In this document: piece by piece, positions 37,771 through 42,355 of the stretch | How positions within the stretch are numbered: the stretch's first letter is position 1 | How the letters are laid out: each line of letters begins with the position of its first letter | Source: a bacterium | Lineage (GTDB): Bacteria > Electryoneota > RPQS01 | Reading direction: 5' to 3' | Length of the DNA stretch: 64,000 nucleotides | Assembly: GCA_023382385.1 (NCBI GenBank) | Contig: JAHDVH010000001.1 | Location: 124,001-188,000 of the forward strand | Position numbers and translations under genes: made by a program | Notes under the pieces: model-generated | Told to the model about the DNA's origin: nothing | The model's input: the letters and a program-made list of their open reading frames with translations, nothing else | Database searches by the model: none

Positions 37771-37796
37771 AAGGCCGACTCATTCAAGTCGGCCTT
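37771..37796. terminator. Bidirectional hairpin between lepB and the four-gene membrane operon
   Basis: AAGGCCGACT pairs perfectly with AGTCGGCCTT over 10 base pairs with a 6-base loop. It lies between convergent genes and has short T-rich ends on both strands, so it probably stops transcripts from both sides. Confidence 0.7.
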
Positions 37797-37828: not shown

Positions 37829-38485
37829 TTACGCGGCGACTTTAAGCCATTCTACAAACAGGAAATAGAAGCGGTCGAAGAGAAGCGCGATGCGCGTCAT
37901 GACAGTATAGCCATATCCGGCGCCAAATCCAATCATCAGCAATGTTGTGCCGGTCGTGGCAACGTGTTTGAGGGCACCCTTCTGTTCAATCGAAAAGAAG
38001 AAGTAGAAAAGAACCGATATAAGGCCCAAAGTAAAGAGCGGATTCCGGAAGATCTGCAAGAAGTTCAGCAGTGACGGTTGACCCGAAAACTTTGACACGG
38101 TTACGGGCTCGAAAACGGGAATCAGACTGGCTTGAACCTGCAGCACCATGTCTCCTGAGGCAAATCCAATAACCGCAAGCCCAGCATAGGTGCCAATAAT
38201 CACGGACATGGGCCACCTCGAAATCCAACCGAGATTGTCAGAGAATCGAGTGAAAAGTGCAATACCAAGTATCAAAGGAATGATCAGCCAATAGTCCGTC
38301 CCCGAGGTAAGGGGGCGCCAAAGGTTCGGCAGGAACACGTTGTAAAACTCTGCGCACACGACATAGCCTGCGGCGATTCCCACAAAGAAATGCTCAGCAA
38401 CTTTGTATAGTGGATTATCACTATACAGGAAGCTCAAAATGGCGATCGTGCAGAGACCGGCAATTGAAAGCCAAAAGAATTCCAT
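37829..38485 (-). CDS. Uncharacterised six-helix membrane protein, fourth gene of the unknown operon
   Basis: The 218-residue product is almost entirely membrane-embedded. I count about six hydrophobic segments (near residues 3-20, 30-52, 66-84, 92-110, 145-170 and 178-198). It has no signal peptide and no recognisable catalytic motif. Polar motifs between helices include YSDNPLYKVAEHFFVG and TRFSDNLGWISRWP. It starts 3 bases after the upstream gene of the same operon, so it is likely translated together with it. I do not recognise the family, and transporter or scaffold roles are both possible. Confidence 0.8.
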   Translation of the reverse strand: MEFFWLSIAGLCTIAILSFLYSDNPLYKVAEHFFVGIAAGYVVCAEFYNVFLPNLWRPLTSGTDYWLIIPLILGIALFTRFSDNLGWISRWPMSVIIGTYAGLAVIGFASGDMVLQVQASLIPVFEPVTVSKFSGQPSLLNFLQIFRNPLFTLGLISVLFYFFFSIEQKGALKHVATTGTTLLMIGFGAGYGYTVMTRIALLFDRFYFLFVEWLKVAA

Positions 38486-38488
38486 AGT

Positions 38489-39328
38489 CTATGCCCTCAA
38501 CTTGCCGCGGCGGTTAATAAAGAACAGCAAATTCCCGAAGAGGATAAAGAAGATTATGACGAAGTGGCCCATTGTCTGACCATCCATTGATGTGAGTGCA
38601 AGACCGGGCTTGTTGATCAACGTTTCATACTCTGCGGCCCCTGTTATTCCTGTCAATAATCCCTTCAGCTGTCCGCTCTGGAAATATGCTGAGTACTCTG
38701 GGACAGACACTGCAGAAGAACCACTGAGCATTGGAATTGCAAACCTTGACGTCACATATTGCACGTACTCTTTGGTTCCCGGATATCCGGCCGAGACGTT
38801 TACCAGCAAGGCAAAGCTTGCATAGTTTTCGACGCCGTTCAATAAAGGTATCTGATCGACAGGAGTTCCATAGAAGTCATTTGGAAACGTTGCACGAATT
38901 GACTTGCCCATCGCAACCATCACGGCTTCTCGACCCTCTTTTAGTCCGAGGTAGACATAGTCCACGCCATATTGCTTGCCAAATTCATCGCGGCAGACTT
39001 GGTTCATGTTGCGTTCAATCAAAGCAGGAGCGGTTGCCCAAAGCGTCATGATAACCGGCCTGTGTCCTTTTTCCATTAGGTGACGGAGTATCGCCACGCA
39101 CATTGGGTTAAGCTCGGCCTTTGAACCGGGGTCGTAGTCAAATGAGCACAAAACTCGAGAGCCGGGAGGCAGCTTCTCAATGTAGTCATAAAACGCCTTG
39201 ATTGGCGGGGTTGTCTTGGGAGCGAGACCCAGTTTAAAGAACAAAGGTGCGGCAACGGCGATGGCCATTGCCAGGAACACCCAGCGACGGTCAAGCTTCT
39301 CAAGTTTCTGCAAAGTTGTAGATGCCAT
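38489..39328 (-). CDS. Uncharacterised protein with membrane helices at both ends and an exported alpha/beta domain, third gene of the unknown operon
   Basis: The 279 residues comprise an N-terminal helix (about 15-33), a soluble alpha/beta region of about 210 residues and a C-terminal helix (about 251-272) followed by RRGK. The soluble part includes GSRVLCSFDYDPGSKAELNP, RHLMEKGHRPVIMTLW and YGVDYVYLGLKEGREAVM, suggesting a Rossmann-like core. With both termini cytoplasmic this domain would face the periplasm. It sits 9 bases after the second gene and 3 bases before the fourth. No function can be stated. Confidence 0.82.
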   Translation of the reverse strand: MASTTLQKLEKLDRRWVFLAMAIAVAAPLFFKLGLAPKTTPPIKAFYDYIEKLPPGSRVLCSFDYDPGSKAELNPMCVAILRHLMEKGHRPVIMTLWATAPALIERNMNQVCRDEFGKQYGVDYVYLGLKEGREAVMVAMGKSIRATFPNDFYGTPVDQIPLLNGVENYASFALLVNVSAGYPGTKEYVQYVTSRFAIPMLSGSSAVSVPEYSAYFQSGQLKGLLTGITGAAEYETLINKPGLALTSMDGQTMGHFVIIFFILFGNLLFFINRRGKLRA

Positions 39329-39337
39329 TCTCTAAGA

Positions 39338-39961
39338 TTACTCCCGGCCAAGGTAGCTTCGTTCGATGCCAAGGATTACCTTTAGACCGGTCGCGATCGC
39401 ACCGAGAGCCGCACCGATCATTATGCCCCGCTGAGCAACTGCATTTGGAACACCCATAATCCAATCCACTAATGCAGGGAGATCATACCAGATATAGTGG
39501 CTTATTGGAATGCGGCCCAGCATCACGATCAGAGCCGTGATTGCGAGTACCGAAGCTTGCCAAGTGCGTACACGGAAGGCGCGAAACGCAGCTGACGCGA
39601 TGTAGAATGCCAACGAGGCATACATTGTTGAAGCCAGTGGCACATAAGAAAAAGTGAACAGTCTGTCGTTCGTCCAGCTGCCTTCTGCAATTCCTAGCGT
39701 CATGCCAGGAATCAACATGATAAAGAACGCTATGACCAGCACGAGCTTGTAGGGCCAGCCAGGCACACGCCTATAGACGAGTTCGCCGTTTATGCGCAGA
39801 ATGTTCGCGGAACCTAGCACGTAAGAGAAGGCAATGACAATAATCGCCCAATTCTGCAGCCTGTTCGCGATATCGTTGACGGTAGGATGCGGAATGAAGA
39901 ATTGTATGATCATGAACACGCCGAATACCAGCGTGATCAGAATTGGAATTTCGCGTTTCAT
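39338..39961 (-). CDS. Uncharacterised six-helix membrane protein, second gene of the unknown operon
   Basis: From the ATG at 39961 the product has 207 residues with about six hydrophobic helices (near 5-23, 36-55, 72-92, 105-126, 133-149 and 176-195). A conserved-looking loop has NGELVYRRVPGWPYK and another has SHYIWYDLPALVDWIMGVPNA. The frame is open 12 codons further upstream, but that stretch would overlap the first gene and lacks a start signal. No family is recognised. Confidence 0.8.
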   Translation of the reverse strand: MKREIPILITLVFGVFMIIQFFIPHPTVNDIANRLQNWAIIVIAFSYVLGSANILRINGELVYRRVPGWPYKLVLVIAFFIMLIPGMTLGIAEGSWTNDRLFTFSYVPLASTMYASLAFYIASAAFRAFRVRTWQASVLAITALIVMLGRIPISHYIWYDLPALVDWIMGVPNAVAQRGIMIGAALGAIATGLKVILGIERSYLGRE

Positions 39962-39978
39962 TGTAGTGGTATTCCTGT

Positions 39979-41220
39979 TTAGATGACTTGGAACCACGAC
40001 CGAAGGAACTGCACGCCGAACATCTCAAGAACAAGGGAAGCCGTGAGACAGACTATGATGAATGCCTTCATATAGTCCGTCGCCTTCAGAGTGCCCATCA
40101 TTTCGACATCGTGGGTTACAAGTGCGCTGGTCGCGAAATATTCTTCACCAATCAGCGTATAGTCGCATGCGACCACGAAGAAAGGCAGCTGATGCGTATT
40201 CGCAGTGCCGGCAATCTGAATAGCGCCAGCAACAAATCCGGTCTCGGAAAGTATCAGAGACTCCGCGAAGAAGGCACCAAGATAGAAATGGGCTGCAGTT
40301 TTCTCACGCATCATGATTCCAGTAGTGCCGCTTGTGAAGGCAAACTGCTCGTCTGAAAGATAACGGATGTTGTCCCGAACATAGGCATCAGGTCGTCCCG
40401 CATTCAGGAATCCCTGTTTTACTGCTTCTTCGGCAACTGTTACCATGAATGCACGGTTGAGCGGCACGATGATTGGTATGTCGTAATTAGCAGCTTTTGA
40501 AGCAACAGATGTTAGAAGCTGAATGGACGCTATGGTTTGGATATTCTCAATATTCTGTGTACCGGGAACATACAGAACAGGTTTCCCAAGTTCAGTGGCA
40601 CGACCAATGGCCTCATCAATCGCGTCGATCCCCGCGATTCTCCTGAAATGCAAAGACGCACCTCCTTTGGCGCGCCGCACCATGACCATCACGGCAACGT
40701 AAAATGCAAACACCATTAGGAGAATATTCACGCGATTCCAGTTGAACCATGCTGCATGGGGCACTACTGGCCCAAAAATAGACGATTCGCTGCGCCTCAA
40801 ACGCTTTTCGAACTTGACAACCACTGAATCGGGATTGGACGAGTCTGGAACAGCAATCGTGGTCGAGTCAAGTGCAACGACCTTTACATAGTAACCGCGG
40901 CTATGTTCAAGACGTAGCCCTTCGCCCGACGTAATGATGGCTTCAGTCTTTTTGGCATCGGTCTCGGCCAGGACCTTAAAGGGACCATTCGCGGTCTCGG
41001 CTGCGAGGACCTCATACTTTAGAATCTCAAAGCCAATCTGTGATGTCGGTGCCCAGAGAACGCGCAGTTTCTCACCGCCATCATTGGGAGGATCCTCTAT
41101 CACAACATTGGTCGGTGCTGCGCCCTGACCCAGCACAATAATAGCGGAGTCAGCTTGTGCAAGGGCTGTCAGGCACGAGAACAAAGCTGTTAGGCAAATC
41201 AAACCGGACTTAAGGAGCAT
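39979..41220 (-). CDS. Exported FN3 plus membrane-anchored unknown domain protein, first gene of the unknown operon
   Basis: From the ATG at 41220, preceded by GGATGGAGG, the product has 413 residues: a signal peptide (to about Ala22), a fibronectin type III-like domain (about 36-137), one helix (163-182, ending VRRAK) and a soluble alpha/beta domain of about 190 residues containing IDEAIGRATELGKPVLYVPG and AGTANTHQLPFFVVACDY. A second helix lies at about 383-404. The soluble domain looks like the family I recall as DUF6754, but I cannot confirm that. It heads a four-gene operon of membrane proteins. A GTG 30 bases upstream is an alternative start. Confidence 0.82.
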   Translation of the reverse strand: MLLKSGLICLTALFSCLTALAQADSAIIVLGQGAAPTNVVIEDPPNDGGEKLRVLWAPTSQIGFEILKYEVLAAETANGPFKVLAETDAKKTEAIITSGEGLRLEHSRGYYVKVVALDSTTIAVPDSSNPDSVVVKFEKRLRRSESSIFGPVVPHAAWFNWNRVNILLMVFAFYVAVMVMVRRAKGGASLHFRRIAGIDAIDEAIGRATELGKPVLYVPGTQNIENIQTIASIQLLTSVASKAANYDIPIIVPLNRAFMVTVAEEAVKQGFLNAGRPDAYVRDNIRYLSDEQFAFTSGTTGIMMREKTAAHFYLGAFFAESLILSETGFVAGAIQIAGTANTHQLPFFVVACDYTLIGEEYFATSALVTHDVEMMGTLKATDYMKAFIIVCLTASLVLEMFGVQFLRSWFQVI

Positions 41221-41455: not shown

Positions 41456-42355
41456 TTAAGGCGCATAGATGCCGAGATCTGGACGACCACTTGTTCGCGC
41501 CTTCATGCTTTCAATCTCGCTAATGCCAAGCTTGCCAATCCCCGGTCGGAACTCTTCAAGTTCAACTGTGAAGGATCCGAATGAGACTCTGGAACTCATC
41601 ACGACAGGGATCCGCCTCGCATCAGCTGTCACCCAGACGAAGACACGCGCCTTGCCCTCCTTTTTAAACAATCCGCCGCTCTTCAGCACAGGCTCGCAGA
41701 CAAAACAATCAAATTCTCCCGCCAATGTCTGAACTGTGTCACGTGCGTGTACGATCACGAACAGATCGTAAGTCTTATTCACATCATGAGTCCTGATTGA
41801 CACGGTATCACCAACATCAAAATCGAGACATCGTGTTCGATAGCCCGCCGAAAGGACATCTTGAACATAAGGATCGACCTTCTGCATATCCTTCTCCTTG
41901 CCCTCATCCCACCATCGCACAGAACTATCATGTGGTGAGAACTTCACGAGCTTCTCGTCCTGGTAGAATCCTTCCATCAGCTTTTTGTGGAAACGATGAC
42001 TATACACTGAGTCCATATCCACCCAGGTGGTAATAGTATCGCGCACTTTGAAGACCCAATCAAAGGCCTTGGCAGACCTCGCACTGGATTGCACCACCCA
42101 CGACCATTGGTCGTTTACCATCGCAGTGTCAATGACTCGAAGCTGTGCTTTCCCGGCAGGTACAGCTCCAAAAGAGACATGATAGATCATCTCTTCGCCC
42201 AGCGCGAATGGCAGCGGAAGTGGCGGTTGTCCTATTGAGTCAACTCGTATAGACAAAGCGGGCGCGCCGTGCAATTCATCCGAAGCTCCTGCGAGCGGCA
42301 CCATGCTCACGCAGAGGAACAATAGTAGTATCAGCTGAAACTGAGAAACTTTCAA
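41456..42355 (-). CDS. DUF3108 exported protein
   Basis: The 299-residue product has a signal peptide (about 1-24) and a beta-rich domain with the DUF3108 signature (FALGEEMIYHVSFGAVPAGKAQLRV and, later, TLAGEFDCFVCEP and VWVTADARRIPV). DUF3108 proteins are periplasmic or outer-membrane-facing and have no established role. It sits 13 bases after tsaC and is the last gene of the uvrB-to-DUF3108 run, before the gap with the palindrome. Confidence 0.85.
   Translation of the reverse strand: MKVSQFQLILLLFLCVSMVPLAGASDELHGAPALSIRVDSIGQPPLPLPFALGEEMIYHVSFGAVPAGKAQLRVIDTAMVNDQWSWVVQSSARSAKAFDWVFKVRDTITTWVDMDSVYSHRFHKKLMEGFYQDEKLVKFSPHDSSVRWWDEGKEKDMQKVDPYVQDVLSAGYRTRCLDFDVGDTVSIRTHDVNKTYDLFVIVHARDTVQTLAGEFDCFVCEPVLKSGGLFKKEGKARVFVWVTADARRIPVVMSSRVSFGSFTVELEEFRPGIGKLGISEIESMKARTSGRPDLGIYAP

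Follow-up and report, generated by a model that had tools for sequence, protein, structure and literature searches.

Four adjacent genes in a genome of Candidatus Electryoneota, referred to here as A, B, C, and D, form a cassette that is passed on intact in more than ten phyla and has a near-constant ATP-binding pair of partners, F and E, which is why the cassette and the pair together probably represent an undescribed core machine of the cell envelope. The genes lie in the window, i.e., the whole 64,000-nucleotide stretch of DNA analyzed in this work. A preliminary description of this region had proposed an undescribed four-gene complex; our data favor the complex but indicate that four genes are an incomplete set, as F, E, and often a third protein, g, accompany them. 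The system comprises seven gene families, most of them without a characterized relative, which occur in numerous phyla both within and outside the FCB group. The alpha/beta domain of A is a clear member of the DUF6754 family; the cassette with its partners is undescribed in the open-access literature searched and is new as a whole within that scope, with F falling into the broad known MutL family. Strict retention in draft genomes, often in about five copies, indicates that the system should serve a basic role in these largely uncultured bacteria. Knowing this role would supply a missing piece of their cell biology and might reveal a new way of coupling an actin-fold ATPase to the envelope.

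The four-gene unit and its products

The unit was described as four minus-strand genes separated by gaps of 17, 9, and 3 bases and encoding only membrane proteins; the ORF coordinates (A to D, from 41220 down to 37829) and the analysis of all four products bear this out (Table 1).

Table 1. Coordinates of the cassette genes, the downstream hairpin, and the fused F-E genes
Feature	Position	Strand	Description
Gene A	39979..41220	-	413 aa; signal peptide, FN3 domain, TM, DUF6754 domain (Rossmann-like, predicted cytosolic), TM
Gene B	39338..39961	-	207 aa; six-helix membrane protein, predicted N-in/C-in
Gene C	38489..39328	-	279 aa; TM, Rossmann-like domain (predicted periplasmic), TM
Gene D	37829..38485	-	218 aa; polytopic, with five to six membrane helices
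Hairpin 3' of D, between converging genes	37771..37796	-	10-bp perfect inverted repeat; probable transcription terminator
F-E fusion	L150:4957-7863	-	
F-E fusion	L151:7047-9953	-	
F-E fusion	L152:6196-9009	+	
F-E fusion	L153:7803-10724	-	
F-E fusion	L155:11844-14825	-	

Protein A had been presented as an exported protein with an FN3-like domain, a helix, an alpha/beta domain, and a second helix, and the same architecture was obtained from the FN3 profile, the AlphaFold2 model, and the topology analysis. Its N-terminal domain matches titin FN3 (E = 2e-16, profile search against solved structures in the PDB), while residues 155-409 match the Pfam profile DUF6754 (PF20539; E = 1.2e-103; 346 bits against a gathering cut-off of 27), the family to which the alpha/beta domain had been likened. 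DUF6754 is a named yet uncharacterized domain; neither this name nor PF20539 is mentioned in the open-access literature searched, and a description elsewhere is possible. The AlphaFold2 model (pLDDT 90.2, built on an alignment of 71 sequences) contains one six-strand alpha/beta domain between two membrane helices (TM 164-182 and TM 386-404). With an alignment average of 4.5 K/R within the 15 residues after the first helix, the positive-inside rule predicts a cytosolic location of this domain. It is conserved throughout, without concentration at strand ends in a circular-shift test. In structure searches, the neighbors of A were mostly FN3 domains, both in the PDB and among viral structures, and the latter also gave two weak NYN/LabA-like matches.

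Protein C, as suggested before, has a helix at each end and a single alpha/beta domain, of six strands, between them (AlphaFold2, pLDDT 95.6, alignment of 84 sequences). On average over the alignment, 4.0 K/R precede its first helix and 4.1 follow its second, placing the domain, by prediction, in the periplasm. Thus, the claim that soluble domains are held at the membrane is retained with one correction: the domains of A and C would lie on opposite membrane faces. Conservation in C occurs mainly just after the strands, to a degree matched or exceeded in only 1.5% of circular shifts; this edge is the usual ligand-binding side of Rossmann-like folds. The structural neighbors of C are generic Rossmann/GT-B proteins only. 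It shares a generic alpha/beta fold with OtsA (trehalose-6-phosphate synthase; E = 3.5e-4, with a poor superposition, rmsd 15) and with MT0777 (TM-score 0.63 by target length), but differs from both in being membrane-anchored, predicted periplasmic, and devoid of sequence similarity to them. In the AlphaFold2 models, the A and C domains have an identical order of helices and strands; homology between them was rejected, as profile-profile comparison was not significant for either whole proteins or domains only, and we regard this as a resemblance.

Proteins B and D, each a conserved family, had both been described as six-helix proteins. This holds for B (six TM, N-in/C-in, according to the TM profile and the positive-inside rule averaged over the alignment), whereas hydropathy gives five helices for D, which probably has six. 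Their comparison led us to reject the idea that they are paralogues. For B, C, and D, neither Pfam nor NCBIfam gave a significant match, nor did the PDB yield sequence relatives.

Clear similarity of at least two members to a known transporter or secretion system had been named as evidence that would speak against a new complex; none was found for A-D in Pfam and NCBIfam, nor for B-D in the PDB. Specifically, Pfam gave no match to ABC ATPase, EcfT, or permease families in A-D, F, E, or g, while Pfam and NCBIfam gave none to secretion, pilus, or Tol/Ton/Exb systems in A-D. A phage, mobile, or defense origin of the cassette was also considered and received no support from the searches, including PADLOC, which returned no anti-phage defense match for A-D, F, E, or g.

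Conservation of the cassette and its partners

Relatives of DUF6754 were sought in 84,980 species genomes, which gave at least 79 loci, mostly from MAGs and with mechanical gene calls in genomes other than that of the window. According to record titles, these loci include Zixibacteria, WOR-3/Stahlbacteria, Eisenbacteria, Latescibacterota, Coatesbacteria, Cloacimonadota, Edwardsbacteria, Fermentibacteria, Planctomycetota, Acidobacteria, Gemmatimonadota, Nitrospirae, Deltaproteobacteria, and others. Among the loci listed, a six-frame profile search found contiguous A-B-C-D in 62 of the 70 that are not cut by a contig end, in more than 10 phyla. The preliminary description had asked whether the genes stay together in the same order across phyla, and in these loci the homologues are indeed adjacent and ordered alike. 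Since loci were selected through A, this count demonstrates that B, C, and D follow A and not the reverse, which is covered by the whole-genome counts below. Median gaps over all loci are 12.5 (A-B), 0 (B-C), and 2 bases (C-D). Flanking genes differ between phyla while the A-B-C-D order stays, and a unit so kept across phyla is far beyond chance. Two or three head-to-tail cassettes occur in 20 of the loci listed, a count that varies with how far the contigs extend.

Of the 39 genomes of the window's phylum, an identical set of 16 has A, B, and C, and 15 of these also have D; in the remaining one, G004, the contig stops inside C. All 99 sampled Zixibacteria genomes carry DUF6754, mostly in 4-6 copies. 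In multi-cassette loci, the nearest relative lies in the same locus for only 1 of 53 cassettes (two more comparisons were undefined), so the tandem copies are distinct paralogues of long standing; in the tree, cassettes at different tandem positions belong to separate clades. Inter-cassette distances of A, B, C, and D correlate with r of 0.69-0.80, compared with at most 0.12 in permutations, a correlation to which shared species history contributes; correlated divergence of this kind is expected of four genes encoding one complex. A, B, C, and D, with their partners, almost certainly constitute one functional system, and the data support the view that the four proteins form a single undescribed envelope complex, from which we infer physical association.

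The commonest neighbors of the cassette are F (an ATPase of the MutL/GlmL type, PF13941), E (about 375 aa), and g (about 130 aa). In many lineages and phyla they are located directly upstream of A in the order g-F-E-A-B-C-D, with g often present. F matches the MutL family over the whole model (E = 1.7e-126; 423 bits against a gathering score of 27), but it is longer (about 600 aa) and falls below the curated NCBIfam cut-offs: 221.9 of 475 bits for NF040745 (GlmL), 208.6 of 600 for NF040744 (Or-4), and 161.2 of 204 for TIGR01319. GlmL-type proteins are thought to be activases for B12-dependent mutases, not transport motors. F differs from them in its linkage to, or fusion with, E and in its synteny with a membrane complex instead of a mutase. 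Mean column identity across phyla reaches 66% in F, whose DCGSTTTK and DIGGATTD motifs (ASKHA) are invariant, and 59% in E. For E, Pfam gave no barrel-sandwich or lipoyl match, only a sub-threshold KOW (E = 0.07), and PDB profiles gave only weak SPT5 KOW matches. A likeness to RnfC/NqrA-type barrel-sandwich proteins was noted by eye only, and inspection by eye revealed no lipoylation-type modified-lysine motif.

In the window's genome, E (C2:496553-497671) and F (C2:505058-506863) are encoded about 7.4 kb apart on another contig, where g was not found adjoining F. Among the 16 cassette genomes of this phylum, E occurs in 15, as well as in one genome without the cassette (Fisher p = 1e-8), and F in 13 (p = 9e-7). 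Because several cassette genomes, including the nearly complete G029 (97%), are without detectable F (three of the 16) or E (one), the pair may be replaceable, or may have been missed. Outside this phylum, E was found in 46 of 48 cassette genomes, with only a divergent relative in G051. In the phylum of the Phycisphaerales genome G073 (n = 119), across which the system is patchily distributed, 27 genomes have both E and DUF6754, 4 have DUF6754 alone, 2 have E alone, one of these being a fragment, and 86 have neither (p = 3e-20). The tie of F to ABCD is a genomic one. F-E fusions of about 940-990 aa, encoded in Cloacimonadota, Fermentibacteria, and one genome labelled Armatimonadetes (Table 1), support a direct partnership of the two proteins; in locus L155, the fusion is a paralogue, as a g-F-E operon exists there besides. 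In Zixibacteria, F is present in 96 of the 99 sampled genomes, single in most; the presence of a single F-E pair with several cassettes suggests that many complexes are acted on by the same partner. In a Stahlbacteria genome with the cassette but without an ordinary E, divergent F and E genes overlap each other (L154:2960-5537, minus strand).

Proposed mechanism and alternative explanations

A mechanism can be outlined from the observed gene order, the predicted folds and topologies, and a presumed coupling between them; as a whole it is tentative, and we hold it with clearly less than even confidence. A, B, C, and D would form one inner-membrane complex, in which about 12 helices of B and D would build the membrane core. 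A and C would each contribute a membrane-held Rossmann-like domain, on the cytosolic and the periplasmic side, respectively, with A adding its FN3 domain in the periplasm. The soluble F-E pair may dock on the nearly invariant cytosolic domain of A; conservation throughout this domain would fit contact with the highly conserved F-E. The ASKHA fold opens and closes with ATP, and F-E might spend ATP on switching ABCD between states, the change travelling via B and D to C, where a cleft on the periplasmic side would bind a ligand. One F-E pair would serve several paralogous ABCD complexes, so that the paralogues would provide different specificities.

The shared F-E pair and the conservation patterns of A and C lead us to propose an ATP-coupled trans-envelope machine, most probably a transporter, although another kind of machine might be meant. 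Counting against the mechanism are the absence of any identified catalytic, ion-path, or substrate motif, the activase role ascribed to GlmL-type proteins, and the cassette genomes of the window's phylum in which F or E was not detected. In broader terms, g-F-E-(ABCD)n may represent an undescribed class of ATP-using envelope machines in which an actin-fold ATPase pair drives several paralogous four-subunit membrane complexes that carry Rossmann-like domains on either side of the membrane, a class that would be core to entire phyla such as Zixibacteria; this is a proposal whose chance we put only somewhat below even. A single ATPase serving several membrane modules is known from ECF transporters, among others, and the outline is similar: one ATP-using module and several paralogous membrane modules. 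Here, in contrast, an ABC ATPase, EcfT, and an S component are all absent, F has the actin fold of ASKHA proteins, and the membrane proteins show no relationship.

The main rival holds that ABCD is a membrane enzyme complex whose Rossmann-like domains bind a cofactor or substrate, while F-E loads or repairs it as an ATP-dependent activase or reactivase. Such a role would suit the position of F in the Pfam MutL family, near GlmL, a single F for several paralogous complexes, the weak GT-B/Rossmann likeness of C, and the glycine-cleavage and lipoate ligase genes that adjoin the cluster in some lineages. These neighbors are, however, limited to those lineages, F scores under the curated GlmL cut-offs, and the helices of B and D exceed the needs of an anchor. 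Moreover, no catalytic motif or cofactor signature was found; the earlier remark that no catalytic motif is visible thus stands, and ion-path or substrate motifs were likewise not identified. We consider an enzyme with its activase unlikely, if still worth weighing.

With soluble domains on both faces, ABCD could also be sensory or regulatory: C would sense a periplasmic signal and A relay it to F-E, which would act on cytosolic targets, the partners in WOR-3 being the downstream DUF4388, roadblock-like, and ExbB/ExbD genes. Several paralogues would suit several signals, and the DUF4388 neighborhood in WOR-3 fits as well, but A-F contain no output domain, so many membrane helices are unusual in sensors, and the WOR-3 neighbors are not kept elsewhere, so that a signaling role appears quite improbable. 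Finally, conserved operons can hold independently acting genes, and A-D might be co-transcribed neighbors working separately without a complex. The constancy of their order while flanks vary, duplication in four-gene units, correlated divergence, and near-exact co-occurrence make this very improbable.

Flanking elements and lineage-specific neighbors

The hairpin reported at the end of the unit is real. The sister species L046 has it too, its stem altered by compensatory changes (GACT/AGTC to GGTT/AACC). In the window the hairpin has no T-run; a transcription terminator is its probable role. The palindrome reported upstream of the unit exists, with A+T-rich arms of 9 nt, but is not conserved in the sister species; we rejected it as an operator and regard it as a chance occurrence. 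No structured RNA was found in the region.

In some lineages, g-F-E-A-B-C-D is flanked by glycine-cleavage genes (gcvT, gcvH, and two gcvP subunits) and a lipoate-protein-ligase-like gene (L053:1831-14081; likewise L055 and L058), and a metabolic link, confined to these lineages, is possible. In WOR-3 (L070:6792-12285; similarly L076, L086, L113, and L116), the genes after ABCD encode a DUF4388 protein and two roadblock-like proteins (a likeness seen by eye; no Pfam family matched), then two small membrane proteins, and include ExbB/ExbD/TonB-like genes. The genome G003, from the same phylum as the window, carries the same cluster as the Candidatus Hatepunaea locus L052. In the Hatepunaea-like family, the cassette is interrupted by insertions that vary between genomes (L030:7814-9930, L147:5627-7237, L149:4036-7185), including an AAA ATPase whose neighbor is HNH-like and an apparent DNA methyltransferase. 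In locus L081, a DUF6134 protein is encoded between F and E. A DUF3108 gene (window 41456-42355, minus strand; PF11306, E = 4.5e-37) is located 206 bases upstream of the unit, and such a gene is found near the cassette in nine loci.
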